Source: Streptacidiphilus sp. PB12-B1b (lineage in GTDB: Bacteria > Actinomycetota > Actinomycetes > Streptomycetales > Streptomycetaceae). From it: a stretch of 64,000 nucleotides of DNA. Below the pieces are notes generated by a model. That model was not told where the DNA came from. It ran no database searches and worked only from the letters and a program-made list of their open reading frames with translations. A program made the position numbers and the translations under genes. Below are positions 14,689-53,068 of this stretch, piece after piece (position 1 is the first letter of the stretch; every line of letters starts with the position of its first letter). Location of the stretch: the NCBI RefSeq assembly GCF_014084125.1, contig NZ_CP048405.1, forward strand, positions 2,976,001 to 3,040,000. The letters are read 5' to 3'.

Positions 14689-14742
14689 GGAGTGCTCCTT
14701 GGAACGGGAGAGGGGGAACGGTGTGGGGCCGGGCCGAGGCCG

Positions 14743-14763
14743 TTCGAACGATCGATAAGTTAG
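14743..14763. promoter_or_regulatory. Operator-like motif upstream of thiolase
   Basis: TTCGAAC-n2-TCG-n-TAAGTTAG, 55-75 bases upstream of the thiolase start. Eighteen of 21 bases are identical to the motif at 16070-16090 in the racemase/TetR divergent promoter. It is the best candidate binding site for the TetR protein at 16150 (inference). Confidence 0.6.
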
Positions 14764-14866
14764 CGCCGTGCGGGTGCCCTGTCCAGGATGGTCCAGGCCG
14801 CCCGCGCCGTCCACGCCACCACGCTCCCACGCCGGACGCCGACCCCCGCGCGCCGGGCGCTCGGCG

Positions 14867-16045: not shown

Positions 16046-16069
16046 CTGATCGCTCCTCCCGGCAAAGAA

Positions 16070-16090
16070 TTCGAACATTCGCTAAGTTAG
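16070..16090. promoter_or_regulatory. Operator-like motif in the racemase/TetR divergent promoter
   Basis: TTCGAAC-n2-TCG-n-TAAGTTAG, 24 bases upstream of the racemase GTG and about 60 bases before the TetR start. Placement between a TetR gene and its divergent neighbour is classical for an autoregulated operator. The same motif recurs at 14743-14763. Confidence 0.65.
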
Positions 16091-16149
16091 GGCGCGGGGG
16101 CTCCGCTGTCCATCGGTCGCGGCCACCCGGCCCGCCTATGATTCGGCCT

Positions 16150-16782: not shown

Positions 16783-16794
16783 ACGGGCCCCGCC
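16761..16794. repeat. 17-bp tandem duplication spanning the TetR stop codon
   Basis: GCTGAACGGGCCCCGCC occurs at 16761-16777 and again at 16778-16794, followed by a third, diverged copy. The gene ends within it, so copy-number changes would alter the last codons. Confidence 0.75.
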
Positions 16795-16849
16795 GCTGAA
16801 ACGGACCCGGCTGCCGAACGGGTGACCGGGGGCGTGTCGGCCGCTCTCG

Positions 16850-16864
16850 GACAAGCAGCTTGTC
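16850..16864. promoter_or_regulatory. 15-bp palindrome just upstream of secreted protease
   Basis: GACAAGC-A-GCTTGTC, a perfect 7+1+7 inverted repeat ending 15 bases before the protease ATG at 16879. No conventional ribosome site lies between, so this may be an operator overlapping a short leader. Confidence 0.45.
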
Positions 16865-16878
16865 GCACTGTTGGCTGC

Positions 16879-17736
16879 ATGGGCTTCCGACGGGAGCGCG
16901 TGCGGTCCGCTCCCGGGTCGCTGCGCCTGGCGCTGTGCCGCGCCGCCTGCGCGCTGCTCGCCACAGGGACGGCGCTGGCCGGTGTCGGCGCGCCGCAGCA
17001 CGCCCCCGGCCCGGTCCGCCGCGCCGCCGCCCCCTCGCGCGACCGGGCCTTGACGCCCGGCAGCAGCGACCGCAGCCGGACGCTGGCGCTGCCCTCGGAC
17101 TACCGCATCGGCGCGCTGCTGCCGCCGGGCGGCGCCGAGCACGGCTTCTGCACCGCCGGCGTGGTCGCCAGCCCGCACCACAACCTGCTGGTCACCGCCG
17201 CGCACTGCGTCTACGACGGCCCCGACCGCGACTACCGCACCGGCCTGTCCTTCTCGCCCGGCGACAGCACCGGCCACGGCCCGGCGGGGCTGTGGTGGGC
17301 CGAGCGGACCGTGGTGGACGCGGGCTGGATGAGCAGGGCCGACCCGGACCTGGACGTGGCCTTCGTGATCATGAGCCCGCGCGACGGCCGCAACATCCAG
17401 GACATGGTCGGCGGCAACCCGATCGCCTTCGGCCGGGCCGCCGGACCGGTCGGCCTGATCGGCTATCCGACCGGGGCCGACACCCCGCACAGCTGCGTCA
17501 ACCGCGTGCACCAGCTGGACGAGCACCAACTGTGGATCTACTGCCCGGACTTCACCAGCGGCACCAGCGGCTCGCCCTGGCTCGCCGACGCGGGCACCGC
17601 CACCGGCGGCAGCGGCACCCTGATCGGTGTGCTCGGCGGCCACGAGCACGGCGGGGCCACCGCCGACGTCTCCTACAGCAGCTACTTCGGCCCCGACATC
17701 GCCGCGCTCTACTACCGCGCCGTCGCCGCCTCGTGA
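16879..17736 (+). CDS. Secreted trypsin-like serine protease
   Basis: A 285-residue chymotrypsin-fold protease with an N-terminal signal (LALCRAACALLATGTALAGVG) and a probable propeptide to about residue 65. The triad is visible: His in LLVTAAHCVYD, Asp in DPDLDVAFVIM, Ser in TSGTSGSPWL. Cys residues at FCTAG/AAHC and HSCVN/IYCPD suggest two disulphides. It resembles V8/glutamyl-endopeptidase-like secreted actinobacterial proteases. Its TGA overlaps the GTG of the following gene (GTGA), coupling it to a glutamine cyclotransferase. Confidence 0.88.
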   Translation: MGFRRERVRSAPGSLRLALCRAACALLATGTALAGVGAPQHAPGPVRRAAAPSRDRALTPGSSDRSRTLALPSDYRIGALLPPGGAEHGFCTAGVVASPHHNLLVTAAHCVYDGPDRDYRTGLSFSPGDSTGHGPAGLWWAERTVVDAGWMSRADPDLDVAFVIMSPRDGRNIQDMVGGNPIAFGRAAGPVGLIGYPTGADTPHSCVNRVHQLDEHQLWIYCPDFTSGTSGSPWLADAGTATGGSGTLIGVLGGHEHGGATADVSYSSYFGPDIAALYYRAVAAS

Positions 17737-18572
17737 GCCCCGGGCGACGAACCCGCGCAGCCGCCCTCGCCGCCCTCGTCACCGCCCTCGCCGTCTGTGC
17801 GGCCGCCGTGCTCGCCGCCTGCGGACCGGCCACCGCGCCCCCGGGCGCGCCCGCGCCCGAGCGGCTGGCGGTCCGGGTGCTGGCGGTGCTGCCGCACGAC
17901 CGCACCCGGTTCACCGAGGGCCTGGAACTGCGCGACGGGGTGCTCTACGAGAGCAGCGGGCTCTACGGCCGCTCGGCCGTGACCGCCACCGCCTGGCCCG
18001 GCGGGGCGGTGCTGGCCCAGTCGGCGCTGCCGAACGGGCTGTTCGGCGAGGGCCTCACCGTCGTCGGCGACCGGATCTGGCAGCTGACCTGGCGCGAGGG
18101 GATCGCGCTGGCGCGCCGCCGGTCCGATCTGGCCGTCCTCGGCGAGACGCGCTACCCCGGCCAGGGCTGGGGGCTGTGCTACGACGGGCGGCGGCTGGTG
18201 ATGAGCGACGGCAGCGCCCGGCTGACCTTCCGCGACCCGGCGAGCTTCGCCCGGCTCGGCGCGGTCGCGGTGACCGACGCCGGGCGGCCGGTCCCGGACC
18301 TGAACGAGCTGGAGTGCGCGGGCGGCTCGGTCTGGGCCGACGTCTGGAAGAGCGACGACCTGCTCCGCATCGACCCGGCCAGCGGCCGGGTCACGGCCGT
18401 CGCGGACGCCTCCGCGCTGCGGCCGTCCGCCCCCGGACCGGCCGACCGGACCGGCGAGGCGGTGCTCAACGGGATCGCGGCGATCCCCGGCAGCCCGCAG
18501 TTCCTGCTGACCGGGAAGTTCTGGCCGGCCATGTACCGGGTCGTCTTCGTGCCCGCCGGGCGCACCGGGTGA
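17733..18572 (+). CDS. Glutaminyl-peptide cyclotransferase lipoprotein (bacterial type)
   Basis: A 279-residue lipoprotein: basic start, hydrophobic stretch, lipobox LAAC. The mature part is the glutamine cyclotransferase beta-propeller (PF05096): RTRFTEGLELRDGVLYESSGLYGRS, NGLFGEGLTVVGDRIWQLTWREG, YPGQGWGLCYDGRRLVMSDGSARL, DLNELECAGGSVWADVWKSDD, LNGIAAIP, LTGKFWPAMYRV. The enzyme cyclises N-terminal Gln to pyroglutamate, protecting exported proteins from aminopeptidases. Its GTG start overlaps the protease stop, so it may modify that protease or its products outside the membrane (inference). Confidence 0.9.
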   Translation: MSPGRRTRAAALAALVTALAVCAAAVLAACGPATAPPGAPAPERLAVRVLAVLPHDRTRFTEGLELRDGVLYESSGLYGRSAVTATAWPGGAVLAQSALPNGLFGEGLTVVGDRIWQLTWREGIALARRRSDLAVLGETRYPGQGWGLCYDGRRLVMSDGSARLTFRDPASFARLGAVAVTDAGRPVPDLNELECAGGSVWADVWKSDDLLRIDPASGRVTAVADASALRPSAPGPADRTGEAVLNGIAAIPGSPQFLLTGKFWPAMYRVVFVPAGRTG

Positions 18573-18576
18573 GCGG

Positions 18577-18939
18577 TCAGCGGGGGGTGGCCAGCAGGGC
18601 GGACATGGCGGCCAGCACGCCGGGCTCGACCCGGTAGTAGACCCAGGTCCCGCGCCGCTCGCAGGAGAGCAGCCCGGCCTCGCGCAGCTTCTTCAGGTGG
18701 TGGCTGACGGTCGGCTGGGAGACGCCGACGTCCTGGATGTCGTAGACGCAGGCTTCCTTGCCCGCGTGCGAGGCGACCTTGGAGAACAGTCGCAGTCGTA
18801 CCGGGTCGGCCAGGGCCTTGAACATGAGTGCCATGGCGGCTGCGTCCGCCTCGGACAGTTCCGCGGAGGTGACCGGCGGACATCGGGGGAGGAGGCCGTC
18901 CTGCAGGAGCGGCGGCTCCAGCGCTATCGGATTCGACAT
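18577..18939 (-). CDS. ArsR-family winged-helix regulator
   Basis: A 120-residue ArsR/SmtB repressor: LMFKALADPVRLRLFSKVASHAGKEACVYDIQDVGVSQPTVSHHLKKLREAGLLSCERRGTWVYYRV. Arsenic-sensing relatives carry CVCD at the start of helix 3; here only the first Cys remains (CVYD), so the metal site may be altered or absent. No arsenic resistance gene lies next to it. Start ATG at 18939 (MSNPIALE) with a purine-rich AGAGAGAG upstream; ATG at 18954 is an alternative. Confidence 0.85.
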   Translation of the reverse strand: MSNPIALEPPLLQDGLLPRCPPVTSAELSEADAAAMALMFKALADPVRLRLFSKVASHAGKEACVYDIQDVGVSQPTVSHHLKKLREAGLLSCERRGTWVYYRVEPGVLAAMSALLATPR

Positions 18940-19004
18940 GTCTCTCTCTGGCATTCGTCCGTGCAGCGCGGCGCCGGGGGCGCGCCGGGGGCTGCGAGTC
19001 TGGC

Positions 19005-19042
19005 GGGGTTCCGGCCGCCGGGGAGGCGGCGGCCGGAACCCC
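19005..19042 (-). terminator. Intrinsic terminator after the S53 protease gene
   Basis: A perfect 15-bp stem (GGGGTTCCGGCCGCC with its complement) and 8-base loop, 34 bases beyond the protease stop. It should separate the protease transcript from the downstream arsR-type gene on the same strand. Confidence 0.8.
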
Positions 19043-19075
19043 GTCCGGGAGCCCGGGGAGGTCAGCCGGGGAGGG

Positions 19076-20311
19076 TCAGCCGGTGAACGCGGTGAGGCCG
19101 TTCGGGGTGCCGAGCCCGGTCGGGCCGTCGTAGCCGGTCCCGGCCTCGCACAGGTACGTCGGCGAGCAGGTGGCCGTCTTGCCCTTGGTGACGTCGTTCA
19201 GGGCCGACGGGTGGGCGTAGAGGTCGGCCGCCGGGTACGCGGCGGTCGGGGTGCCGGCGTCGGCGAAGACGGCCGCGATCAGCGGGGAGGCGACGCTGGT
19301 GCCGCCGTAGACCTGCCAGCCGCTGGCGCCGTAGGTCTCGTAGACGGCGACGCCGGTGGCCGGGTCGGCGACGGCGGAGACGTCGGCGACGGTGCGCTTG
19401 GAGCAGCCGCTGTCGGTCTGCCAGCTGGGCTTGGCGTCGTAGGCGGAGCAGCCGGAGCCGGCGCCCTCGGTGGAGGAGGTGGACCAGACCGACTCGGTCC
19501 AGCCGCGCGTGTTGGAGGCGGTCTTGAGCGAGGTGCCGCCGACGGCGGTGACGTACTGCGAGGCGGCCGGGTACTCGACGCCGTAGCCGCTGTCGCCGGA
19601 GGAGGCGGTGACCGCCACGCCCGGGTGGTCGTAGTACTTAGTGTCGTACGTCGGGTCGGAGGAGGACTCCGAGCCGCCGTAGCTGTTGGAGACGAACTTG
19701 GCGCCGAGCTTGACCGCCTCGTTGACGGCGGCGCCGAGGTTGGCGGTGCTCGCGGACTTGGCCTCGACCAGGATGATGTGCGCCTTGGGGGCGATCGCCG
19801 AGACCATGTCCAGGTCCAGCGAGATCTCCCCGGACCAGCCCTTGTTGTTCTTCGGCAGGGTGCTCGTCCCGGTCTGGCTGACCTGCTGGAAACAGCCGTC
19901 CCCGCTGGTACACGCGGGCAGTCCGTACTGGCTGCGGTAGACCGACATGTCGGCTCCCGCTTTGGGGTCGTTGTAGGCGTCCACGATGGCGACGGTCTCG
20001 CCGGCGCCGCCGTTGGCGGGCAGGTTGTAGGCGCTGAGCAGGTCGCTCGGGCCGAAGCCGGAGGGGGCAGCGCTGGGGGTCGTGCCTAAGGCGTTGACGT
20101 GCTCGGTGGTGTCGGTGACCCGCAGCGCGTCGCAGGCCATCTGGCCGACGGTGCGGGGCACGGCGCAGGAGCGCACCCAGGTGGCCGCGGCGGGGGCGGT
20201 CTGGGCGCTGGCGGGGGTGCTGGCCACCAGGGCGGTGGCCGCCAGCGCGGCCGAGCCCAGCAGCGGGAGCACGGTCCAGCGCCGGAGCTGGGAGGTGGGG
20301 GCGGTATGCAT
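19076..20311 (-). CDS. Secreted S53 (sedolisin-type) serine-carboxyl peptidase
   Basis: A 411-residue exported protease with signal peptide (WTVLPLLGSAALAATALVASTPASA). The S53 catalytic pattern is present: Glu and Asp in WSGEISLDLDM, oxyanion Asp in TASSGDSGYGVEYPAA, Ser in VYGGTSVASPLIAA, and the C-terminal calcium loop GTGYDGPTGLGTPNG. It lacks the long N-terminal prodomain of typical acid sedolisins. Residue 75 is encoded by TTA, the rare leucine codon read by the bldA tRNA, so translation is probably tied to development. The ATG at 20311 has AGGAGG 8 bases upstream. Palindromes lie upstream (20405-20483). Confidence 0.9.
   Translation of the reverse strand: MHTAPTSQLRRWTVLPLLGSAALAATALVASTPASAQTAPAAATWVRSCAVPRTVGQMACDALRVTDTTEHVNALGTTPSAAPSGFGPSDLLSAYNLPANGGAGETVAIVDAYNDPKAGADMSVYRSQYGLPACTSGDGCFQQVSQTGTSTLPKNNKGWSGEISLDLDMVSAIAPKAHIILVEAKSASTANLGAAVNEAVKLGAKFVSNSYGGSESSSDPTYDTKYYDHPGVAVTASSGDSGYGVEYPAASQYVTAVGGTSLKTASNTRGWTESVWSTSSTEGAGSGCSAYDAKPSWQTDSGCSKRTVADVSAVADPATGVAVYETYGASGWQVYGGTSVASPLIAAVFADAGTPTAAYPAADLYAHPSALNDVTKGKTATCSPTYLCEAGTGYDGPTGLGTPNGLTAFTG
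20087..20089 (-). other. TTA leucine codon (bldA target) in the S53 protease
   Basis: In-frame TTA at codon 75 (NALGTT context). TTA codons are rare in streptomycete genes and are read only by the developmentally controlled bldA tRNA. Confidence 0.85.
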
Positions 20312-42029: not shown

Positions 42030-43796
42030 TCAGGGAGCGGTGAACCCCTGGACCACCTGGAGGAACCAGGCGTACCCGGTGCTCCAGTCGGACTCCGGAC
42101 AGGCCAGGTAGATGGCGTACTCGGTGCCGGAGCTGTCCTTGTAGAACTGCTCGATGGCATGGCGCTGCTGCAGGCTGCCGTTGATGTCCTCGCTGAAGGT
42201 GAACTCCCAGCGCGCGCCCTGGTAGCCCTTGATGGTGTCCGTGTTCAGGCTGACCAGCCGGTAGGTGCGGGAGGTCGAGACGACCTCCTTGGCCATCTGC
42301 TGGGCGTGCTGGAGCGGGCTGATGCCCTGCCCCGGAGTCACCCCGAAGGTCAGCAGGTGGTCCTGGCCGTCCGGGGTGTAGCGGATCGCGCTCAGGCCGT
42401 CGGCGGAGCGCACCCAGGGCTTGCCGGTGGTGGGCAGCGGAAAGGAGAAACCGGCCGGGTCGCGCTGCAGGGTGTAGCCCGGGGGAGCGGGCGGAGCGCT
42501 CGGCGGGGGCGTGGTCGGGTGCGCGCTGGGGGTGCCGGCGGCGGCCGGGGTGCCCGACGGCTGGTGGCCGACCTCGTACGCCACACCGCAGGCGGCCAGC
42601 ACCACGGCCAGACCGGCCGCGACCGGCCAGGTGCGGCTGCGGCGACGGCGCCGGCCCCGGTGGTTGCCGGACAGAGCCGAGGTGGCGGCTCCGGCCCGGC
42701 GGGCCGGCTCGGCCTCGGCCGGTGTGACCGGTGCCATGGGTTCGTGCGGATGGTCCGACTCGGGGAGGTGGCGGGTGGGCCGCTGCCCGGCCTCGGTCCG
42801 CTGCCCGTGCCCGACCGTCGTGGGCCAGTGCTGCACCGGGGTGCCGCCGTGGCTGCTGTCGCTGTGGTGTGTGCCGCCGACGGTGGCGGTGGACCAGCCC
42901 GAGGTGTGGGCCTGATGCGCCTGCGGCCCGGGGGCTGCGGTGGCGGTGTCTGCGCCGGTGTCGGTACCGGTACCTGCGGCCAGGCCCTCCAGGGTGCGTA
43001 TCGCCTCGACCGTGTCCGGACGGTCCTCGGGCTGCTTGGCGAGCAGGGCCTTGAGCAGCGGGGCCAGCGGTCCGGCGTGGCCGGGCTCCCGCAGCGGCTC
43101 GGAGACGACGGCGGCCAGGGTGGTCAGCGGCGAGTCGCGGCGGAACGGCGACTGGCCCTCGACGGCGGTGTACAGCGTCGCGCCCAGGCCCCACAGGTCG
43201 GAGGCGGGCCCGGGGCGGGCGCTCTGGATCTGCTCGGGGGCGAGGTAGTCGGGGGAGCCGATCAGATCGCCGGGCCGGGTGAGCGCGGAGTCGCCCTCGT
43301 AGGTGGCTATGCCGAAGTCGGTCAGCACGACCCGGCCGGTGCCGTGCTCCAGCAGCACGTTGGCGGGCTTCACGTCGCGGTGGATCACCCCGGCCCGGTG
43401 GCCCTGGTGCAGCGCGGCCAGCACCTGCGCGCCCACCCCGGCGGCCTCGGCCGGGCTGAGCGGGCCGTCCTGGTCGATGCGCTCGGCCAGTGAGCGGCCG
43501 GTGATCAGCTCCATCACGATCCACGGCTTGCCGTCCTGCTCCAGCACGTCGTGGACGGTGATCACGCCGGGGTGCCGGATGCGTGCGGCGGCGCGGGCCT
43601 CCTGCTTCATCCGGGACTGGACGATCTGCAGGTCCTCCTCGGCGAGGTGGCCGACGGACAGCTCCTTGACCGCGACCTCGCGGTCCAGCATCTGGTCCTG
43701 GGCACGCCAGACCGTGCCCATGCCGCCGCGTCCCAGTCGATCGCCCAGCAGGTACCTGCCCGCCAGGGTGCGGCCTGTTCCCGCTGTACTCTCCAT
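42030..43796 (-). CDS. Membrane-anchored Ser/Thr protein kinase (PknB-like)
   Basis: A 588-residue eukaryotic-type kinase. Kinase domain residues about 13-275: LGRGGMGTVWRA (Gly loop), EVAVKEL (Lys), VIHRDVKPANVLL (HRD), LTDFGIA (DFG), GSPDYLAPEQ, DLWGLGATLY. A Pro/Thr/His-rich juxtamembrane region precedes one TM helix (RTWPVAAGLAVVLAACGVAYEVG, near 385). The extracellular domain is not PASTA but a compact sensor (GYTLQRDPAGFSFPLPTTGKPW ... YAIYLACPESDWSTGYAWFLQVVQGF), as in other streptomycete kinases. It probably senses an envelope or extracellular signal. Confidence 0.92.
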   Translation of the reverse strand: MESTAGTGRTLAGRYLLGDRLGRGGMGTVWRAQDQMLDREVAVKELSVGHLAEEDLQIVQSRMKQEARAAARIRHPGVITVHDVLEQDGKPWIVMELITGRSLAERIDQDGPLSPAEAAGVGAQVLAALHQGHRAGVIHRDVKPANVLLEHGTGRVVLTDFGIATYEGDSALTRPGDLIGSPDYLAPEQIQSARPGPASDLWGLGATLYTAVEGQSPFRRDSPLTTLAAVVSEPLREPGHAGPLAPLLKALLAKQPEDRPDTVEAIRTLEGLAAGTGTDTGADTATAAPGPQAHQAHTSGWSTATVGGTHHSDSSHGGTPVQHWPTTVGHGQRTEAGQRPTRHLPESDHPHEPMAPVTPAEAEPARRAGAATSALSGNHRGRRRRRSRTWPVAAGLAVVLAACGVAYEVGHQPSGTPAAAGTPSAHPTTPPPSAPPAPPGYTLQRDPAGFSFPLPTTGKPWVRSADGLSAIRYTPDGQDHLLTFGVTPGQGISPLQHAQQMAKEVVSTSRTYRLVSLNTDTIKGYQGARWEFTFSEDINGSLQQRHAIEQFYKDSSGTEYAIYLACPESDWSTGYAWFLQVVQGFTAP

Positions 43797-44071: not shown

Positions 44072-44357
44072 GGGATCATGACCCAGTCCGATCCGGAGTG
44101 TCAAGAACTCATCTGGGCTGTCAACGAACAGGGCTGATGAAACGTCAGCTGGCCTTTTCCGCGCCGGTGGCGGGCGCGTCATCACTCGGCATGCGCCCGG
44201 TCACGTTCGGTAGCGGATGGCATGCGCGTCCGCCGGAATCCGCACGGATATTGCTGCGGCCCCTCCGCCCACCCCCACCTGCGGCTCTGCCCCAACGTCC
44301 GGCCCGGGCGGCGGTGCGAACCGGCGGGCCCCGGCAATCCCGGTGTTGACACTCCAA

Positions 44358-44373
44358 GTTGGTCTAGTCCATT
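44358..44373. promoter_or_regulatory. DasR-like (dre-type) motif overlapping a candidate promoter
   Basis: GTTGGTCTAGTCCATT matches TGGTCTAGACCA at 11 of 12 core positions. It starts 7 bases after TTGACA (44346-44351), so a protein bound here would cover the presumed -10 region of the dioxygenase operon. Confidence 0.45.
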
Positions 44374-44558: not shown

Positions 44559-45620
44559 ATGCCGAAGCCTGACCGCTACCTGTTTCGAGCCGCCTCCGAC
44601 ACCCCGTATTTCAGCGCCGACGCCGAGGCGTACCTGGCGCAGATCCCGTTGCAGGACATCCGGAAGACCCAGCAGCTCCGGGTGCTGTCCAAGGAGGACT
44701 ACGCCTTCTGGCAGACCTACGGCTACGTCGTGGTCCCGCAGGCGATCCCCGCCGCCGCCGCGCAACGCCTGCTGGAGTTCGCCTGGGAGTTCCAGGGACT
44801 CGACCCGGACCGCCCGGACACCTGGTACCAGGAGCGCGCCTTCCGCTCGGATCTGGACCGCGAACTGCACATCTACGGTTTCGTCGAGGCGTACCAGCAC
44901 CAGCTCATCTGGGACAGCCGGCAGGCCCAGCGCGTCTACGACGCCTTCGTGGACGTCTGGGACTGCGAGGAGCTGTGGGTGACCCTGGACCGGCTCAACC
45001 TCAACCCGCCCAACATCAGGAACCGCGACCGCGCGCTGATCGCGCCCACGGACAGCGGTTTCGACATCGAACTCCACTGGGACGTCGACACCTCGCTCAG
45101 CGTCCTCCCGCAGCGGGTCCAGGGAATCATCGCCCTCAACGACACCACGCCCGAGCAGGGTGGATTCCAATGCAACCCGGAGCTGTTCCGCCGCTTCGAC
45201 CGGTGGAGGATCGAGCAGCCGCAGGACCGCGACCCGATCAGGCCGGACGTCGACCGCGCGGAGTTCCCGGTGGTCCGGCCCGAACTCAAGGCCGGGGACC
45301 TGCTGATCTGGAACGGGATGCTGGCCCACGGAGTGGCCCGCAACACCTCGCGCGACGGCGTCCGGGCGGTCCAGTACCTCTCCATGATGCCCGCGCTGGA
45401 AGCCCACCAGCAGTTACGGCGCTCCCGGATCGCCTCCTGGCGCGACCTCAGCACACCCGACTGGAACGGCACCCTGGTCGGCGACGCCACCAGGCACGAA
45501 TCGCTGCGCTACGGCAGCGCCACGCTGACCGACCTGGGCGCGAAACTGCTCGGCCTCGAACCCTGGCACCCGAACGACGCCGGACACGGCGGCGAACCCG
45601 ATCAGCCGACGGGAGCATGA
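44559..45620 (+). CDS. PhyH-family Fe(II)/2-oxoglutarate dioxygenase, with a TTA codon
   Basis: A 353-residue member of the phytanoyl-CoA dioxygenase-like family, many of which hydroxylate amino acids and natural products. The metal triad is visible: His and Asp in IELHWDVDTSL near 170 and distal His in LAHGVARNTS near 260, followed by Arg in GVRAVQYLSM for 2-oxoglutarate. Codon 286 is TTA, implying bldA control of an operon-leading gene. Its stop overlaps the next ATG (ATGA), starting a chain of overlapped genes through the GNAT gene. I infer that it hydroxylates an amino-acid-derived substrate of this operon. Confidence 0.87.
   Translation: MPKPDRYLFRAASDTPYFSADAEAYLAQIPLQDIRKTQQLRVLSKEDYAFWQTYGYVVVPQAIPAAAAQRLLEFAWEFQGLDPDRPDTWYQERAFRSDLDRELHIYGFVEAYQHQLIWDSRQAQRVYDAFVDVWDCEELWVTLDRLNLNPPNIRNRDRALIAPTDSGFDIELHWDVDTSLSVLPQRVQGIIALNDTTPEQGGFQCNPELFRRFDRWRIEQPQDRDPIRPDVDRAEFPVVRPELKAGDLLIWNGMLAHGVARNTSRDGVRAVQYLSMMPALEAHQQLRRSRIASWRDLSTPDWNGTLVGDATRHESLRYGSATLTDLGAKLLGLEPWHPNDAGHGGEPDQPTGA
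45414..45416 (+). other. TTA leucine codon (bldA target) in the PhyH gene
   Basis: In-frame TTA at codon 286 of the first gene of the five-gene operon; such codons are enriched in secondary-metabolism and developmental genes. Confidence 0.88.
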
Positions 45621-46933
45621 GCGTGCAGCCCATCTGCCTGACCCTGCCCACCAACCGGGCGTGCGCGCCGACGATCGCCGCCGTCCACGCCGAAGCCGCC
45701 TACGCGGCCCAGCACTTCGGCGTACAGGTGCACCTGTTGATCCTGGACTCCGCCGAGGCGCCGGACTTCGCCGAGCACACCCGGGCCCTGCGCGAACTCC
45801 CGGCGGCGCCCGGGGTGAGCGTGCACCACCTGGACGAGGCGGCCCAGCGGGACGTCCTGCAGCAGGTGATCCAGCGGGCCGCACTGCCCAAACCGGATCT
45901 GGTCCTGGAGCTGATGCTGCCCGCCGGGCTCTCCTACGGCGCCTGCACCAATCGCGCGTTCCTGCTGGCCGGCGCCCTGGGCTGCGGGTCCGTGCACCGC
46001 AGGGACTCCGACAGCCGTTACCAACTGCTGCACGGCGCACCGGTGTTCCCCATCCAGCACGAGCTGGCCTCGCTCGGCAGGCGTGCCGTGGACGCCGCGG
46101 ACGGGGTCACCCGGAGCGAACTGGACCTCCGGCACGGGCACAAAACGGTTGCGATGGTGGGCAGTTCGTTCGTCGGTGAACTGTCCGTGGACATCGGCGA
46201 GGTCCAACGGCTGGACCCCGACGTCTACTTCGACATCGTCAGCCTGTGGGCGCCGGGCGACTGGACCCCGCAGCAGAAGCAGGACCTGGTGGACGAGTCC
46301 TTCCGGGGAGCCGGAAACGAACCCTTCACCGGGGACGAGACGATCCTCGGCCTGGTCGACCCGATGCGGGTGGACATGTGCAACATCAGCTTCCACGGCG
46401 TCCACGAGGACGTGCCGCTGCCACCGGCGACCGACACCATCGGCAGCGACTACTTCCTCATCCACCTGGTCCAGAAGGCGACCCTGCCCGGTGTGCTGCA
46501 CAACCGCAACATCGTGAACTTCTACACCGGGGAACGGCGCACCGGCCCGGGATTCACCGCCTACCAGCTGCGCCTGGTGAAGTTCTTCCTGTCGATGCTC
46601 TACCTCAACGCCGTCTACGCCGACATGGCCGAGGCGGGGGCATCGCTGCTGGACGCCCGGCACCGGGTCCGCGCCGATGCGATCGCCGCGTCCGTCCGCG
46701 CGAGCACCTGGCTCGACCGGGGCGAGAACGTCCACCGGCTGGAGAGCCTCGCCCGCTCCTACCGGACGCTGGGCGGAAGGTACGCGGAGTGCGCCGACCT
46801 CGTCGCCGCGCGCAGCGGCCGGCTGCTGGACGAGGCCCGACAGGACATGGAGGACTTCGCCGTCCTGATCGAGGCGTGGGCGCCGATGGTGGCGGCGAGC
46901 AAGGCCATGAGCTTCCAGCAGCTACCACGGTGA
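45617..46933 (+). CDS. DUF6271-like protein
   Basis: A 438-residue protein starting ICLTLPTNRACAPTIAAVHAEAAYAAQHFGVQVHLLILDSAEAPDFAEHTRALREL, which looks like the nucleotide-binding half of a GT-A glycosyltransferase. Later segments include LVLELMLPAGLSYGACTNRAFLLAGALGCGSVHRRDSDSRYQ (an HRRDSDS acidic motif that could hold a metal). I associate this with the uncharacterised DUF6271 family from memory. The C-terminal half is helical. It could transfer a sugar or other group to the decarboxylated amine, but no reaction is known. It overlaps both neighbours by 4 bases (ATGA, GTGA). Confidence 0.7.
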   Translation: MSVQPICLTLPTNRACAPTIAAVHAEAAYAAQHFGVQVHLLILDSAEAPDFAEHTRALRELPAAPGVSVHHLDEAAQRDVLQQVIQRAALPKPDLVLELMLPAGLSYGACTNRAFLLAGALGCGSVHRRDSDSRYQLLHGAPVFPIQHELASLGRRAVDAADGVTRSELDLRHGHKTVAMVGSSFVGELSVDIGEVQRLDPDVYFDIVSLWAPGDWTPQQKQDLVDESFRGAGNEPFTGDETILGLVDPMRVDMCNISFHGVHEDVPLPPATDTIGSDYFLIHLVQKATLPGVLHNRNIVNFYTGERRTGPGFTAYQLRLVKFFLSMLYLNAVYADMAEAGASLLDARHRVRADAIAASVRASTWLDRGENVHRLESLARSYRTLGGRYAECADLVAARSGRLLDEARQDMEDFAVLIEAWAPMVAASKAMSFQQLPR

Positions 46934-48159
46934 CCAGGCCGGAACCGCCCATCATGCTCGAGAACGCGCGCATGCACGCCGCCCTGGAAGCCGCCGCCGA
47001 CGACCGGATCGTCTTCGACCTCACCGGAATCCGAGCGCAGTACCAAACCCTGCTGCGCGAACTGCCGGGAATCGCCGTCCGGTTCGCCATGAAGGCCTGC
47101 CCGGTGGACGAGGTGCTCGGCTTTCTGGCCGGACAGGGCGCCGGATTCGACGCGGCCAGCCCCAACGAGATCGCCCAGGCACTGCGGACCGGCGCACCCG
47201 TCAGCAGCATCCACTACGGCAACACCATCAAGTCGGACCAGAACATCGCCGACGCCCACCGGCTCGGAGTCCGCGACTTCGCCACCGACAGCCTGGAGGA
47301 CGTCGCGGCCCTCGCCGTGCACGCCCCCGGGGCGCGGGTGTTCTGCCGACTGGCCACCAGCGGCGTGGGCGCCCTGTGGGGGCTCACCCGGAAGTACGGC
47401 TGCACGCCCGAGGACGCCCTGCTCGTCATGGAGGCGGCGCGGGCCAGCGGCCTGACACCGGCCGGCCTGTCCGTCCACGTCGGCTCGCAGCAGATGACCG
47501 CCGGGGCCTGGCGCGACGCCTTCGACAGCCTCGCCGGAACCTTGGCCGCCCTCCGGCTGCGCGGTATCCACCCGGACCACGTCAACCTCGGCGGCGGACT
47601 GCCCGCCCTCGGCTGCCTGGACCGGACCGGCCGCGCGCTGGAACCGCCGCTGGACAAGATGTTCGCCGTCATCCGCGAGGGCATGCAGCAGCTCCGCGCC
47701 GTGGCCGGGCGGAGGCTCGACTTCGTCATGGAACCCGGACGCCACCTGGTCGCCGACCACGGCGCCATCCGGGCGCACGTCTCCCGGCTGTCCGTACGGC
47801 GGCAGCCGGGCGGCGAGCCCCAGCACTGGCTCTACCTCAGCTGCGGAAAGTTCAACGGCCTCTACGAGATGGACGAACTCCAGTACCGCCTGGTGTTCCC
47901 CACGCACCCCGGCGCGGAATCCGTGCCCGCCGTGGTCGCCGGACCGACCTGCGACAGCGACGACGCCTACGCCCACGCCGCCGGCGGGCTGGTCCGGGTA
48001 CCCCGGGCCGCCGCCTCCGGCGATCCGGTCTGGGTGCTCTCCTGCGGCGCCTACGCGACCAGCTACATGACCCAGGGCTTCAACGGCTTCGAGCCGCTGC
48101 CCTACAGCTGCATCCCCGACACCGGCCCAGGCACGGAGGACGGAGCCGTGCACCGATGA
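46930..48159 (+). CDS. PLP-dependent decarboxylase, ornithine/lysine-decarboxylase-like (fold III)
   Basis: A 409-residue alanine-racemase-fold decarboxylase. PLP Lys in VRFAMKACPVDEVLGFL near 55; GAGFDAASPNEIAQAL; HVGSQQ; phosphate-binding LGGGLPA and EPGRHLVADHG; GPTCDSDDAY with the active-site Cys; and the ornithine-decarboxylase signature FNGF at the C-terminus. It probably decarboxylates a basic amino acid to a diamine, but side-chain recognition differs from the usual enzymes. The GTG start overlaps the previous stop. Together with the dioxygenase and acetyltransferase, it suggests synthesis of a modified (hydroxylated, N-acylated) amine. Confidence 0.85.
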   Translation: MTRPEPPIMLENARMHAALEAAADDRIVFDLTGIRAQYQTLLRELPGIAVRFAMKACPVDEVLGFLAGQGAGFDAASPNEIAQALRTGAPVSSIHYGNTIKSDQNIADAHRLGVRDFATDSLEDVAALAVHAPGARVFCRLATSGVGALWGLTRKYGCTPEDALLVMEAARASGLTPAGLSVHVGSQQMTAGAWRDAFDSLAGTLAALRLRGIHPDHVNLGGGLPALGCLDRTGRALEPPLDKMFAVIREGMQQLRAVAGRRLDFVMEPGRHLVADHGAIRAHVSRLSVRRQPGGEPQHWLYLSCGKFNGLYEMDELQYRLVFPTHPGAESVPAVVAGPTCDSDDAYAHAAGGLVRVPRAAASGDPVWVLSCGAYATSYMTQGFNGFEPLPYSCIPDTGPGTEDGAVHR

Positions 48160-48725
48160 GCAACGACACACCCATCCGACACATCACCGACCACGACTGG
48201 GACGACATCGTCGCCCTGGAGTCCGGCGCCTACGCCGCCCTCGGCCTGTCGGAGCAGCGCTCCGCACTGGAATCCAGGGCCCACGCCTCGCCGAGCACCT
48301 GCTTCGTCATCGAGTGCGACCGGCGGATCGCCGGCTACCTGCTGGCCCTGCCCTACCCGCACGCCCACTACCCCGACCTGGCCCGGCCGGAGCACGGCAC
48401 CCACCGCACGGACAACCTGCACCTGCACGACCTGGTCGTCGCCCGGCCGCTGCGCCGCCGGGGACTGGCCCGGCTGCTGCTGCGGCAGCTGACGGCGACC
48501 GCCGCGGCGCAGGCGTACGACCGCATCTCCCTGGTCGCCGTGGCCGGGAGCGACGCCTTCTGGTCGGCCAACGGATTCACCGCCCACCACGGCGCCGCGC
48601 CCCCGCCCGGCTACGGCGCGCACGCGGTCTACATGTCCCGGGCGGTACGCGCGCACGCAACCGGGGAACCACGGCCGTCCGGCGCCCTGCCGCACGGGTC
48701 ACCACCGACCGACGAAGTAGGCTGA
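48156..48725 (+). CDS. GNAT-family N-acetyltransferase
   Basis: A 189-residue GNAT protein. Motif A for acetyl-CoA is LHDLVVARPLRRRGLARLLLRQL (RRxGxA type), and motif B follows at YDRISLVAVAGSDAFWSANGFTAHHG. N-terminal IRHITDHDWDDIVALE is the usual substrate arm. The ATG overlaps the decarboxylase stop. It probably acylates the amine formed by that enzyme or provides self-resistance. The C-terminal tail (TGEPRPSGALPHGSPP) is disordered. Confidence 0.87.
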   Translation: MSNDTPIRHITDHDWDDIVALESGAYAALGLSEQRSALESRAHASPSTCFVIECDRRIAGYLLALPYPHAHYPDLARPEHGTHRTDNLHLHDLVVARPLRRRGLARLLLRQLTATAAAQAYDRISLVAVAGSDAFWSANGFTAHHGAAPPPGYGAHAVYMSRAVRAHATGEPRPSGALPHGSPPTDEVG

Positions 48726-48731
48726 TCTCAC

Positions 48732-49946
48732 ATGCTCCGCGTGCACGACGACTTCCGCAGGGCGCAGTTGGCGATTACCGCGCTGTTCTGCTCGCTCGGA
48801 TTCCAGTACGCCACCTGGGCCTCCCGGATACCCGCGATCACCGCCCGGCTCGGCCTGAGCACCGCCGAGGTGGGGCTGCTGCTGATGGCCACCGGCGTCG
48901 GCGCGGTGGCGTCCTTCCCGCTGGTCGCGCTGGGCACCCGGCGGCTCGGCCCGCGCCGCCTCGCCCTGCTCTCGGCCCTCGGCCTGGCCCTGGTGCTCCC
49001 GGCCCTGGCCGCCGCACCGGACTACCCGGTGGCCCTGCTGATCATGGCCTGTGACGGCGTCCTGGTCGGCTGCCTCAACGTCGCCATGAACGCCCAGGGG
49101 GCGGCACTCGAAGTCGTCTTCCGGCGCAACGCCATGACGAAGCTTCATGCCACCTTCAGCGCAGGGTCGTTGGCTGCGGCCCTGCTCGCCTCCGGGATGA
49201 ACCTGGTGAGCCCGTCCGTCACGGTGCACTTCGCGGTGGCGGCGGCCGTCCTGCTGCTGCTGGCCGGATATGCCGCGCCCGGGTTGCTGACGGACAGTCA
49301 AGTCGTGTCCAAAAAAGAGGAACCGGCGAAGGCGAAGCGGCGCTTCCGGCTCACCGTGCCGTCCCGGATGACGCTGTGGATGGGCTGCGCCATGGTGTTC
49401 GGCACGGTGACCGAGGGTGCCATGAACGACTGGTCCTCGCTCTACCTCAAGGAGGTCGCCAAGGCCCCGGCGGAGCTGGTGCCCATGGGCATCGCCGTGG
49501 TCTCGGTGATGATGGTGCTGGCCCGGCTGCTCGCCGACGGCCGACGCAGCCGCTGGGGCGACGCGCGGATCGTCCGCCTCGGCAGCGCACTGGCCGCCGT
49601 GGGGCTGGCCCTGGCCCTGCTGATCGGCGGTGTGGCACCGGCGCTGATCGGCTTCGCCTGCGTGGGCCTGGGCATCGCCGCGGTGACGCCCTGCATCTAC
49701 GTGGCGGCGGCGGGGCAGGGCACGGACGCGCTGAACCTGGTCGCCGCCATGGGCGTCACCGGCCTGCTGGCCGGGCCGCCGACGATCGGTTTCATCGCCG
49801 GGGCCACCAGCCTGGTCTGGGGCCTGGGTGCGGTCGCCGCCTCGGCCGCCCTGGTCTCCCTGTGCACCATGCAGATCCGCTGGTCGGCCGTCGCCGCCGA
49901 AGCGGCGCCGACGGCCGACCCGGTGGAGAGCCTCAGCCTCGGCTGA
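48732..49946 (+). CDS. MFS transporter, probable product exporter
   Basis: A 404-residue major facilitator with about 12 hydrophobic helices. The N-terminal part has FQYATWASRIPAITARLGLSTAEVGLLLMATGVGAVASFPLVALGTRRLGPRRL (motif A-like loop), a central charged linker VSKKEEPAKAKRRFRL, then the second six-helix half. It starts 6 bases after the GNAT gene, so it is the last gene of the operon and likely exports its product. Substrate unknown. Confidence 0.87.
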   Translation: MLRVHDDFRRAQLAITALFCSLGFQYATWASRIPAITARLGLSTAEVGLLLMATGVGAVASFPLVALGTRRLGPRRLALLSALGLALVLPALAAAPDYPVALLIMACDGVLVGCLNVAMNAQGAALEVVFRRNAMTKLHATFSAGSLAAALLASGMNLVSPSVTVHFAVAAAVLLLLAGYAAPGLLTDSQVVSKKEEPAKAKRRFRLTVPSRMTLWMGCAMVFGTVTEGAMNDWSSLYLKEVAKAPAELVPMGIAVVSVMMVLARLLADGRRSRWGDARIVRLGSALAAVGLALALLIGGVAPALIGFACVGLGIAAVTPCIYVAAAGQGTDALNLVAAMGVTGLLAGPPTIGFIAGATSLVWGLGAVAASAALVSLCTMQIRWSAVAAEAAPTADPVESLSLG

Positions 49947-49982: not shown

Positions 49983-52241
49983 TCAGCGCGGCCCGGCGCC
50001 GATGCCGTCGGACGGCTCCGGCTCGACTCCCGTGGCCGGGGCCGGGAGCGTCGCCGCCGCCTCGGCGCGGGAGTGGTGCAGCCGCTCGCCCTCGATGTCG
50101 AGGTCGGGCAGCAGCCGGTCCAGGAAGCGCGGCAGTCGCCAGGCCGCGTGCCGGGTGAGGGCCAGCACGGCCGGGACGAAGGTCATCCGGACCACGAAGG
50201 CGTCCAGGAGGACGCCGACGGCCAGGGCGAAGGCGATCTGCTTCAGCATCTGGCTGTCGGTGCCGAGGAAGGCGGCGAACACCGAGATCATGATCAGGGC
50301 CGCCGCAGTGACCACCCGGGCGCTGTGGCGGGCGCCGCTGTGCACGGACTCCAGCGGCTTCCGGGTGCGGACGTACGCCTCCCGCACGCGGGAGACCAGG
50401 AACACCTCGTAGTCCATGGCCAGCCCGAAGAGCACGGCCAGCAGGATGATCGGCAGGAAGCTGCTGACCGGCCCGGTCCGGTCGACCCCGATCAGCCCGC
50501 TGAAGTGGCCGTACTGGAAGACGCCCACCACGGTGCCCAGGGTCGCGGCGATGGAGAGCAGGAAGCCCGCCGCGGCCTTGAGCGGCACCACCAGCGAGCG
50601 GAACACCAGCAGGAGCAGCAGCAGCGACAGGCCGACCACGACCGCGGCGAAGGGGATCATCGCGGCGTCGAGCTTCGCGGAGACGTCGATGCCCACGGCT
50701 GTGCTGCCGGTGACGCTGATCGTGGCGCCGGTCTGCCGTTGCAGCGTCGCCCGGTCCGCGCGGACGGTGGTGACCAGCGTCTTGGTGGCCTCGTCGCTGG
50801 GCGCGGTGGTGGGGACGACCTGGATCAGCGCGGCGTGGGCGGCGGGGTTGACCACCGGGCGGCCGACGGCGGCGACGCCGGGCAGGGTGCGCAGGTCCCC
50901 GGCGATGGTCGTGGCGGCGGTCTGCGGGTCGGCGCTGCGGCTGGTGTCGGCCAGGACCAGCAGCGGGCCGTTGAATCCGGGGCCGAACTCCTTGCTCACC
51001 CGGTCGTAGGCCAGCCGCTGGGTGGAGCTCGCGGGCGCGGTGCCGTTGTCGGGCAGGGCCAGCCGCAGGCTGTGCAGCGGCCAGGCGAGCGCGCCCAGCG
51101 CCACCAGGCAGGCCAGGACGGTCAGCAGCGGCCGCCGGGTGACCAGCCGGAACCAGCGCTCCCCGGCGTTGGCGGGGCCGCCGTCGTCACTGGCGGCGGC
51201 CTGCTCCCGGCGCAGCGAGCGCGATCCGGCCTTGGGGGTCAGCCGGTGCCCGGCGAAGCCGAGCAGGGCGGGCAGCAGCGTGGTGGCGACCAGGACCGCG
51301 ATCAGCACGGCCGCGGCGGCGCTCAGGCCCATGACGGTCAGGTAGGGGATGCCGATGACGGAGAGCCCGGCCATGGCGATGACGACCGTCAGACCGGCGA
51401 AGACGACGGCGCTGCCCGCGGTGCCGACGGCCAGCGCGGCCGACTCCTCCGGGTCGGTGCCGCCGACGAGCTGGGAGCGGTGGCGGCTGACGATGAACAG
51501 GGCGTAGTCGATGCCCACCGCCAGGCCGATCATCAGGGCCAGGCTCTGCGCGGTCGAGGAGATGGCCACCGCCCCGGTGAGCGAGAGCACGCCCGCTATC
51601 GCGGTGACCACCCCGGCGGCGGCGCTGGCCAGCGGCAGCCCCGCGCTCAGCAGCGAGCCGAAGGTCATGGCCAGGATCAGCAGCGCGACGGCGACGCCGA
51701 TCAGGTCGGAGTCGCCGGACTTGGACGAGCCCGAGCCGAAGGCGGCCCCGCCGACCTGGACGTCCAGGCCGGAGCTCCTGGCGCTGCCGACGGCTTTCTC
51801 CAGGTCGGGCAGCGAGTCCGGCTTCAGCTGGCTGGGGGTGACCTCGTACTGGACCTGGGCGACGGCGGTGGTGCCGTCCGGGGAGACGGTGTGCGCGGTC
51901 GCCGGGTCGATCACCTTGGCGACCTGCGGGGCGGTGGCGGCGCTCGCCAGGGCGGTCCGGATCGCGTCCAGATCGGCGGGGTCGGTGATCTTCTGCCCGG
52001 CGGGTGCGGTGAAGACGACCTGGGCGCTGGTCCCGGAGGAGGTCGGGAAGTCGGTCTTCATCCGGTCCAGCGCCTGCTGCGACTCGGAGCCGGGGATGGA
52101 GAAGGTGTCGTTGAGCTTGCCGGTGCCGCCGAAGGCGACCATGCAGCCGACGACTGCGGCGATCAGGGCGAGCCACAGGGCCAGGACCCGCCGTCGGTGG
52201 CGGAAGGCGAGGCGGCCGAGGCGGTAGAGCAAGGTGGGCAT
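49983..52241 (-). CDS. MMPL/RND-family transporter
   Basis: A 752-residue transporter with two repeats of an extracytoplasmic domain and helices. TM1 is RVLALWLALIAAVVGCMVAFGG. After an external domain (residues about 45-185), five helices follow, including SLALMIGLAVGIDYALFIVSRHRSQL (MMPL signature); the second half has FLPIILLAVLFGLAMDYEVFLVSRVREAY. It uses proton motive force to export lipids, drugs or metabolites. The GGAG before ATG 52241 supports the start. It is divergent from a TetR gene, with a perfect inverted repeat between, the usual repressor-efflux arrangement. Confidence 0.93.
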   Translation of the reverse strand: MPTLLYRLGRLAFRHRRRVLALWLALIAAVVGCMVAFGGTGKLNDTFSIPGSESQQALDRMKTDFPTSSGTSAQVVFTAPAGQKITDPADLDAIRTALASAATAPQVAKVIDPATAHTVSPDGTTAVAQVQYEVTPSQLKPDSLPDLEKAVGSARSSGLDVQVGGAAFGSGSSKSGDSDLIGVAVALLILAMTFGSLLSAGLPLASAAAGVVTAIAGVLSLTGAVAISSTAQSLALMIGLAVGIDYALFIVSRHRSQLVGGTDPEESAALAVGTAGSAVVFAGLTVVIAMAGLSVIGIPYLTVMGLSAAAAVLIAVLVATTLLPALLGFAGHRLTPKAGSRSLRREQAAASDDGGPANAGERWFRLVTRRPLLTVLACLVALGALAWPLHSLRLALPDNGTAPASSTQRLAYDRVSKEFGPGFNGPLLVLADTSRSADPQTAATTIAGDLRTLPGVAAVGRPVVNPAAHAALIQVVPTTAPSDEATKTLVTTVRADRATLQRQTGATISVTGSTAVGIDVSAKLDAAMIPFAAVVVGLSLLLLLLVFRSLVVPLKAAAGFLLSIAATLGTVVGVFQYGHFSGLIGVDRTGPVSSFLPIILLAVLFGLAMDYEVFLVSRVREAYVRTRKPLESVHSGARHSARVVTAAALIMISVFAAFLGTDSQMLKQIAFALAVGVLLDAFVVRMTFVPAVLALTRHAAWRLPRFLDRLLPDLDIEGERLHHSRAEAAATLPAPATGVEPEPSDGIGAGPR

Positions 52242-52290
52242 GAGGGCTCCGGGGTCGGGAAGTCTCCGCGCCGCCGGCAGTGAAACCGGC

Positions 52291-52322
52291 AGTACTGCCA
52301 CGTTAGCAAACGTGGCAGTACT
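52291..52322. promoter_or_regulatory. Perfect 14-bp inverted repeat, TetR operator candidate
   Basis: AGTACTGCCACGTT, 4-base spacer AGCA, then its exact complement. It lies 49 bases upstream of the MMPL start and 41 bases upstream of the TetR start, so one bound dimer (or two) could repress both. Confidence 0.85.
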
Positions 52323-52363
52323 GTCACCTTTCTGGGGTGGCTTTGGCCTGAGATGATCGAGGC

Positions 52364-53068
52364 GTGGAGAGCACAGACACGGCAGCGCCGGGCCCGGCCG
52401 GGCCCGCGCCAGGACGCAGAGAGCAGAACAGGCAGCGCACGCACCGCTCCCTGGTCGAGGCGGCTGGACAGCTGTTCCAGGAGAAGGGCTTCGAGGCGGT
52501 GACCGTCCGGGACATCGCCGCCGCCGCCGGAGTGGGGGAGCGGACCTTCTTCCGCTACTTCCCCTCCAAGGAGAGCCTGGTCCTGCAGCAGGTGCGGGAT
52601 CTCATCCCGTCGCTGGAGGCGGCGATCCGCGCCCGCCCGGCGTCCGAGCCGCCGCTGACCGCCCTGCGCAACGCCGTGCTGGAACTCGCCCGGCGCGAGG
52701 GCGCCAACCCGGCGATCCTGCTGGCCGGACCCCTGCCGCCGAGGATCGACCCCACCAGCCGCGGCGACCGGTTCCTGCTGTTCGACCTGGAGGAGGCCGT
52801 CGCCTCCGCGTTCCTGGCCCGGCTCGGCCCGCCCGGCGACGGGATCGCCCCGCTGCCGGGCTGCGACGCGCGGGCCGCCGGGGCGCCGGCCCCGGACGTA
52901 CCGGCCGCCGACCGGGCGACCGCGCTGCGGGTGGCCGTGCTCTCCCGCACGGGCGTGGCGGTGATGCGCTCGGTCCGGCTCGCGTACGCCCAGCTGCCCG
53001 AGGCCGAGCGGGCCGACACCGATGTGACCCAGCTGGTCCACGCCGCCTTCGCGGCCCTGCAGGACTGA
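52364..53068 (+). CDS. TetR-family repressor of the MMPL transporter
   Basis: A 234-residue TetR protein with a disordered first 18 residues and HTH RTHRSLVEAAGQLFQEKGFEAVTVRDIAAAAGVGERTFFRYFPSKESLVLQQV. The C-terminal domain is of the type commonly beside MMPL exporters. It starts with GTG at 52364; a GAGG is very close to it, so initiation may be weak. It is divergent from the MMPL gene with a perfect operator-like repeat. The gene ends inside a 15-base tandem repeat. Confidence 0.88.
   Translation: MESTDTAAPGPAGPAPGRREQNRQRTHRSLVEAAGQLFQEKGFEAVTVRDIAAAAGVGERTFFRYFPSKESLVLQQVRDLIPSLEAAIRARPASEPPLTALRNAVLELARREGANPAILLAGPLPPRIDPTSRGDRFLLFDLEEAVASAFLARLGPPGDGIAPLPGCDARAAGAPAPDVPAADRATALRVAVLSRTGVAVMRSVRLAYAQLPEAERADTDVTQLVHAAFAALQD

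Follow-up and report, generated by a model that had tools for sequence, protein, structure and literature searches.

A stretch of 64,000 nt from Streptacidiphilus sp. PB12-B1b (the window in what follows) contains five consecutive genes encoding a PhyH-family dioxygenase, a protein of the DUF6271 family, a decarboxylase of the ornithine decarboxylase (ODC) kind, a GNAT-family N-acyltransferase and a transporter of the major facilitator superfamily (MFS). The operon formed by these genes is real, widespread and of biosynthetic type, and it was previously unassigned. The five genes appear to serve as a production line for a small molecule, and this line is probably switched on during chitin digestion. 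Our preferred reading, to which we give about an even chance, is that of a chitin-responsive pathway controlled by DasR, in which a small scaffold is hydroxylated, probably glycosylated, decarboxylated and N-acylated, and the product is exported.

Conservation of the operon

Loci of named DUF6271 relatives were compared with the window. The closest 80 of 138 named relatives were retained, and hence the sample is biased towards the operon type of the window. The complete set of five genes, in the same order and on one strand, is found in 72 of the 80 loci, which is more than expected by chance. This number includes two loci (L081 and L088) where automatic choice of gene starts produced odd junctions; all five genes are present there in order. 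Among the eight incomplete loci, L085 and L101 are cut by contig ends, L033 has an inverted MFS gene, and L096 and L109 represent a different cluster type; no decarboxylase was found in L075 and no MFS gene in L076 and L105. The majority of the named relatives belong to Streptomycetaceae, the family of the window, and further named DUF6271 loci come from Actinokineospora, Actinocrispum and Amycolatopsis.

The Pfam family PF19787 (DUF6271) is present in 162 of 394 genomes of Streptomycetaceae, a count that takes in fragments and all cluster types. Thus the operon is not confined to one strain. The idea of a phylum-wide family was dropped, given that in a sample of 396 genomes spread over the phylum PF19787 occurs in five, all of them from Streptomycetaceae. 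In the open-access literature searched, no product or paper was found for DUF6271, PF19787, PhyH combined with the decarboxylase, the sister cluster type described below, or PhyH combined with chitin or N-acetylglucosamine (GlcNAc).

In the window, all five genes are on the plus strand (44559–49946). The first four are joined by 4-base overlaps (ATGA at 45617–45620, GTGA at 46930–46933 and ATGA at 48156–48159), whereas the GNAT and MFS genes are spaced by 6 bases. The GC content at third codon positions is 0.92–0.93 across all five genes. Judging by this layout, they are likely to be one transcription unit. The original prediction, made from the window sequence, described the same five genes, overlaps and gap, and its coordinates are exact. 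It also noted that core domains of non-ribosomal peptide and polyketide synthases are missing, and indeed Pfam finds none among the five proteins. The TTA codon it placed in the first gene is in frame in phyH at 45414 and is the sole one in the operon, the other four genes having none. However, the operon had been called bldA-linked as its defining trait, and this does not hold. A TTA codon occurs anywhere in the operon in 15 of the 72 complete orthologous operons and in phyH in six, so that the system is not characterised by dependence on bldA, which was dropped as its control logic.

A predicted DasR operator upstream of phyH

A TTGACA-like hexamer with TTGGTCTAGTCCA after it is common to the upstream regions of the loci. 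Of 76 loci, 47 have an exact copy of the core TGGTCTAGTCCA in the 500 bp preceding phyH and 52 have it with at most one mismatch, against a background in the remainder of the same loci of 0.0025 and 0.004 per 500 bp, respectively. For 50 of these 52 loci, the 18 nt preceding the core contain TTGACA with at most one mismatch. A wider count, which adds cores at 500–800 bp (two loci) and before dasA in a das-linked clade (eight loci), reaches 62 of 76.

This core is known from the DasR regulon. According to PMC4398421, the consensus of the DasR operator (dre) is A(G/C)TGGTCTAGACCA(G/C)T, and in electrophoretic mobility shift assays DasR bound a probe with the core TGGTCTAGTCCA upstream of scr5239. 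In the same source, the intergenic region SCO6032-33 of Streptomyces coelicolor is listed as bound by DasR in vivo in four of ten columns of data from chromatin immunoprecipitation on microarrays (ChIP-on-chip); the site there is cttggtctagtccatt, with positions −154/−278, and SCO6032 is named as beta-N-acetylhexosaminidase (PMC4398421). In the open-access literature searched, SCO6032 appears in one paper only and SCO6033–6037 are named in none.

An identical 16-mer is present in S. violaceorubidus (L089), where its far end is 151 nt from the start of a gene of glycoside hydrolase family 3 (GH3) and 279 nt from the start of phyH. In eight further loci of the same group the 16-mer (with one base changed in one of them) is 150–162 nt from the GH3 start, while phyH is anywhere from 280 to 356 nt away; the tenth locus of the group, L108, was left out of these measurements. 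Since the 16-mer is the same, the spacing similar and the neighbour a GH3 gene, we take the SCO6032-33 peak to mark, very probably, the promoter of this operon as it exists in S. coelicolor, with SCO6033 being phyH.

With at most one mismatch, the 14-mer GTTGGTCTAGTCCA occurs twice in the genome of the window: upstream of phyH at 44358–44371 and at about 6.779 Mb (L117), where it adjoins genes for a dasA-like binding protein, a GH3 enzyme and a PdtaS-type histidine kinase, 7 kb from a relative of DasR with 71% identity. At L117 the core is found at positions 2985–2996 of the locus, and a dre-like TGGTCTAGACAA is just 5' of it at 2967–2978. In S. coelicolor, the scr5239 region may correspond to this operator region.

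Taken as a sequence-based assignment, control of the operon by DasR and GlcNAc is a well-supported prediction. Approximately 7.0–7.1 kb downstream of phyH, two loci (L055 and L060) also contain a pair of opposite-strand dre-like sites with a spacing of 16 bp; therefore another target of the DasR type may adjoin the operon in these two species.

Chitobiose genes next to the operon

Upstream sequence of 2 kb or more was available for 74 loci. In 51 of them a GH3 gene of the beta-N-acetylhexosaminidase type adjoins phyH, being divergent in 37 and on the same strand in 14; no second place for a GH3 gene was seen in the flanks of any locus. In every one of the 37 divergent loci, the core is in the region separating the GH3 gene from phyH. 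Ten of the 14 same-strand loci (L079, L081, L082, L094, L095, L098, L102, L103, L106 and L110) have the order dasR-like gene (divergent), dasA, dasB, GH3 gene, operon. In L095, the dasR-like protein matches DasR at E 1.2e-115, and the closest solved relative of the GH3 protein is a GH3 beta-N-acetylglucosaminidase. The dasABCD genes provide DasR-repressed uptake and hydrolysis of chitobiose, dasD encoding an intracellular GlcNAcase, as stated in PMC12370203 and PMC6167110.

The three arrangement labels were mapped on a tree of DUF6271 proteins (a quick tree of 75 rows with weak deep support). They require 11 parsimony changes, well-supported branches force two or three changes per label, and their clustering far exceeds that of shuffled labels. 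Two distinct GH3 arrangements and several losses exist among the loci.

The operator might serve the neighbouring GH3 gene only, the operon being a passenger under another regulator. The core between divergent genes in 37 of 74 loci could indeed serve GH3 alone, and 13 of the 23 loci without a GH3 gene have no core within 800 bp upstream of phyH. On the other hand, the core is kept in the other 10 of these 23 loci, as well as in the window, and therefore it is not merely a GH3 promoter; moreover, the TTGACA-like hexamer stands directly 5' of the core in the direction of phyH in 50 of 52 loci. We consider that this explanation has a slim chance of being correct, and retain DasR control of the operon itself. 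At the place which the GH3 gene occupies in many relatives, the window has a divergent gene (42030–43796) assigned by eye to a Ser/Thr protein kinase.

DUF6271 as a predicted nucleotide-sugar enzyme

The original prediction called the second protein DUF6271-like. The identity was right and the reservation unnecessary, as the protein is a true, full-length member of PF19787, scoring 752.8 bits at a cut-off of 25 and covering profile positions 3–432 of 434. PF19787 is the sole Pfam family matched at E up to 0.1. The genome, which is complete (7.67 Mb), contains a single DUF6271 gene.

An AlphaFold model built with 36 sequences has a mean predicted local distance difference test score (pLDDT) of 91.6 and a predicted TM-score of 0.91. 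Its top structural match (Foldseek, VIA-align) is MtdL, with E 1.8e-7, Z 24.1 and a root-mean-square deviation of 3.3 over 312 residues at 12% identity, followed by rice UAM2 (Z 21.3) and by glycosyltransferases, e.g. mannosyl-3-phosphoglycerate synthase (Z 17.8). All 50 listed matches are enzymes of the GT-A type, with Z from 14 to 24. The model shows a DxD motif (D130-S131-D132), D278 and H295-x-R297; D132, D278, H295 and R297 are present in all 36 aligned rows, and D130, in 34.

PMC9937993 states that in MtdL Asp111 of the DXD motif and His287 bind Mn2+, Arg289 and His292 serve the diphosphate, Arg159 is the proposed nucleophile and Asp260 the proposed base, and that GT75 mutases need an arginine nucleophile. 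DUF6271 resembles the GT75 NDP-pyranose mutases MtdL (A201A) and Hyg20 (hygromycin), as well as plant UAM, in the overall fold, the DxD motif and His-x-Arg. It differs from MtdL in that the identity is about 12%, no arginine is conserved in the nucleophile stretch and no arginine stands at the position of Arg257, residues being mapped here by the order of motifs and not by superposed coordinates. In the stretch where the nucleophile is expected (residues 133–250), no arginine or lysine is kept in at least 80% of the 36 rows. The adjacent R251 is found in 33 rows, the other three having Asp (two rows) or a gap (one row); its register relative to Arg159 comes without superposition.

These differences bear on the possibility that DUF6271 is a GT75-like pyranose/furanose mutase of nucleotide sugars, acting as MtdL does in A201A and Hyg20 in hygromycin, so that the product would contain a furanose. 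Although MtdL and rice UAM2 rank above all other structural matches, the arginine nucleophile that GT75 requires (Arg159 in MtdL; PMC9937993) has no conserved Arg or Lys counterpart at 133–250, the operon has no separate glycosyltransferase to use a furanose, and DUF6271 does not match PF03214 (RGP). We regard a mutase as improbable. Membership in GT75 as a sequence family was rejected, given the missing PF03214 match and a negative profile comparison. Of 249 Streptomycetaceae genomes none has PF03214, across the phylum it occurs in two of 396, and a search of the A2 profile against PDB, used as a test of kinship to GT75, yielded weak unrelated matches only (best E 0.15).

As the apparent metal-site residues are kept, no arginine is conserved in the stretch where the nucleophile is expected and sequence similarity to a bacterial GT75 relative is missing, the modelled DUF6271 reads as a nucleotide-sugar enzyme that would use an external acceptor.

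Hydroxylase, decarboxylase and the nature of the scaffold

The iron triad of PhyH (H173-x-D175/H257) and its 2-oxoglutarate residue R269 are the same in all 33 aligned rows. Structure does not assign the PhyH substrate, because the model is too weak and the matches are tied.

In the decarboxylase, K55, H183, E268-P269-G270-R271, C341-D342-S, D345 and Y375 are invariant in 31 of 31 rows. Its nearest solved structures are lysine/ornithine decarboxylases (E 4.6e-38 to 2plj). It shares with 2plj and 5gjm, which presumably come from Vibrio vulnificus and Selenomonas, the pyridoxal phosphate (PLP) fold type III and the Lys, His, EPGR and CDS motifs. Unlike 2plj, it lacks the DGxYGSF stretch in the alignment of the two proteins, and it scores far below every NCBIfam equivalog cut-off matched (116 of 298 bits for lysA, 37 of 700 for DokD). 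Hence it was not taken as a known equivalog acting on lysine, ornithine or diaminopimelate. The substrate may be a basic amino acid, given the catalytic residues of the ODC/LDC type. The genome encodes three further members of the decarboxylase family elsewhere, at 29% identity, and the treatment of the enzyme as the only family member was dropped.

From such enzymes the original prediction derived a hydroxylated and acylated amine. The same composition would allow a small sugar-free amine, hydroxylated, decarboxylated and N-acetylated, made from ornithine, lysine or arginine, with DUF6271 being a GT-A-like fold reused for another step. The decarboxylase fits this scheme, since it aligns best with lysine/ornithine decarboxylases (2plj, E 4.6e-38) and keeps CDSxD and E313/D315; so does PhyH, whose fold matches include the amino-acid hydroxylases H11, GriE and EctD at Z close to that of sugar enzymes. 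However, there would be little reason for retaining the apparent metal and diphosphate residues D130-x-D132 and H295-x-R297 in a reused fold, and the linkage to DasR and GH3 points to GlcNAc. We find a sugar-free amine unlikely. The gene labels behind the original proposal agree with Pfam, whereas a simple amine appears less likely than a sugar-bearing product, because DUF6271 has the predicted GT-A nucleotide-sugar fold. That interpretation is partly supported; it missed the DasR operator, the linkage to das and GH3 chitobiose genes and the GT-A fold.

In the operon for ectoine and hydroxyectoine, EctD is a PhyH protein and EctA, a GNAT. Our operon is similar in that it combines a PhyH hydroxylase and a GNAT, which in ectoine synthesis act towards a small molecule derived from a basic amino acid; it differs in lacking ectoine synthase and the aminotransferase and in having DUF6271, the decarboxylase and an exporter.

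Sister cluster types

In a second arrangement (type B), found in S. clavuligerus (L114), S. xanthophaeus (L096) and S. zaomyceticus (L109), a condensation-domain protein and an MFS protein stand beside the PhyH–DUF6271 pair in place of the decarboxylase and GNAT. L114 and L096 also have, divergently, a ligase resembling class-II synthetases, a carrier protein and a phosphopantetheinyl transferase; for L109 the ligase only is listed. These labels come from Pfam for L114, where the matches of the carrier protein and the ligase are under the curated cut-off, and from reading of the sequences for L096 and L109. The L114 cluster occupies 10869–19787 of the S. clavuligerus plasmid pF1D18A and has a dre-like TGGTCTGGACCA 206 bp before PhyH. 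PhyH of the window is 69–71% identical to PhyH of the three type B loci, and hence PhyH with DUF6271 looks like the common step, a constant core across cluster types, the rest being variable finishing. The condensation set of type B is perhaps another way of N-acylating the scaffold.

Another S. clavuligerus plasmid, pF1D10B, contains a second PhyH–DUF6271 pair (L115, 10940–15448) with no annotated decarboxylase or exporter alongside; no dre-like core with up to two mismatches was found in the 600 bp upstream of it.

In type C (L130 and L131/L158), DUF6271 has 49–50% identity and is directly followed by a GNAT gene. In L158 (5665–10956) the pair comes after a large gene identified by eye as a SARP/AfsR-like regulator. 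A remote relative of DUF6271 (25% identity) is encoded in L159 (7657–11912), after a GT2 glycosyltransferase and before a gene that by eye resembles asparagine synthase; this locus may be another glycoside pathway.

The sister types also bear on a catabolic or detoxifying role, where chitin digestion would yield an amine or aminosugar as a by-product, which the operon would process, with waste being expelled by the MFS protein. The linkage to genes for chitobiose uptake and hydrolysis and the lack of a regulator gene in the operon itself are in line with such a role. However, an acyltransferase together with a nucleotide-sugar enzyme makes a costly, biosynthetic set, the carrier protein, ligase and condensation domain of L114 follow biosynthetic logic, and the distribution is patchy (162 of 394 genomes). 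The chance of a catabolic role seems to us very small.

Proposed pathway

In the DasR-controlled pathway, DasR would repress the operon, and the breakdown of chitin and GlcNAc would switch it on, the 6-phosphates of GlcNAc and glucosamine releasing DasR from dre. PhyH would hydroxylate a small scaffold, probably derived from an amino acid. DUF6271 would move a sugar onto it from a housekeeping nucleotide sugar, of which UDP-GlcNAc is the most economical guess; a housekeeping donor is assumed since the operon has no sugar-nucleotide genes. The ODC-like enzyme would then strip the carboxyl group, exposing an amine, GNAT would cap this amine with an acyl group, and the MFS protein would export the product.

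Several observations count against this scheme. The core motif is absent from 14 of 76 loci, including all five Pseudonocardiaceae loci sampled, and thus DasR control is not universal; among these 14, the sister-type loci L096 and L109 carry TGGTCTAAACCA instead, and L088 of Pseudonocardiaceae has two looser dre-like sites. In the genome of the window, a control with the reversed pattern gave four matches versus the two real ones, so that the own-genome count alone is no evidence; the evidential weight of the operator is in its position and its conservation across species. The window keeps the core, yet it has no adjacent GH3 gene. GH3 labels are strongly clustered on the DUF6271 tree, which means that related loci cannot be counted as independent. 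For this strain, DasR control is a prediction from sequence, and SCO6033 is considered the phyH orthologue by spacing and neighbour. The GT-A assignment of DUF6271 depends on a predicted model, and an hhalign comparison of DUF6271 with a bacterial GT75/RGP relative (probability 0.07%) detected no sequence relationship. PhyH gave a poor model (pLDDT 65.8), with fold matches that tie between enzymes acting on sugars and on amino acids. Finally, no PhyH or decarboxylase match was found within 20 kb in the type C locus L158; as type C pairs DUF6271 with GNAT without these enzymes, the order of the pathway is not fixed by context.

Features of the window

Coordinates of the operon and its predicted control elements are given in Table 1. 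Directly 3' of the operon, at 49983–53068, a minus-strand gene for an MMPL-type transporter is divergent from a gene for a TetR-type regulator (both assigned by eye); there is no sign that this pair belongs to the operon.

Table 1. Operon genes and associated sequence elements, in positions of the window
Feature	Position	Strand	Remarks
TTGACA, −35-like hexamer just 5' of the operator	44346–44351	+	Similar hexamer in 50 of the 52 loci with the core within 500 bp
GTTGGTCTAGTCCA, predicted DasR operator (dre)	44358–44371	+	Core TGGTCTAGTCCA at 44360–44371, 199 bp before the phyH start codon
PhyH-family Fe(II)/2-oxoglutarate dioxygenase, 353 aa	44559–45620	+	Pfam PhyH, E 3.2e-12
Single in-frame TTA (bldA) codon, not conserved	45414–45416	+	In phyH
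DUF6271 protein, 438 aa; predicted GT-A nucleotide-sugar fold	45617–46933	+	Pfam DUF6271, E 1.5e-226
PLP fold-type III decarboxylase of the ornithine/lysine/diaminopimelate decarboxylase (ODC/LDC/DAPDC) kind, 409 aa, GTG start	46930–48159	+	Orn_Arg_deC_N, E 2.4e-38
GNAT-family N-acyltransferase, 189 aa	48156–48725	+	Acetyltransf_1, E 2e-12
MFS transporter, 404 aa, taken as exporter	48732–49946	+	MFS_1, E 2.1e-18

Biological significance

The DUF6271 gene family, counted over all cluster types, occurs in roughly two of every five Streptomycetaceae genomes sampled (162 of 394). The promoter evidence shows how the operon would be woken, namely by chitin, by GlcNAc or by losing DasR; waking is the common hurdle for silent pathways. 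The predicted fold points to turnover of nucleotide sugars by DUF6271 as the first assay. A broader proposal is offered tentatively, as possible but rather doubtful: DUF6271 would found a new family of GT-A glycosyltransferases, and PhyH with DUF6271 would be the core of a large class of DasR-controlled, chitin-triggered pathways for glycosylated small molecules across Streptomycetaceae (by promoter geometry, in S. coelicolor too), and the scaffold would be capped by at least two routes, by decarboxylase and GNAT or by carrier protein and condensation domain.

The operon resembles the core DasR regulon (dasABCD, the GH3 gene SCO6032 and chitinases) in the operator core, its spacing and the neighbouring genes. 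In contrast, it encodes enzymes of biosynthetic type and an exporter, whereas the regulon provides uptake and catabolism. If the proposed pathway is true, it would add a specialised metabolite to the DasR response to chitin, whose known core is catabolic.

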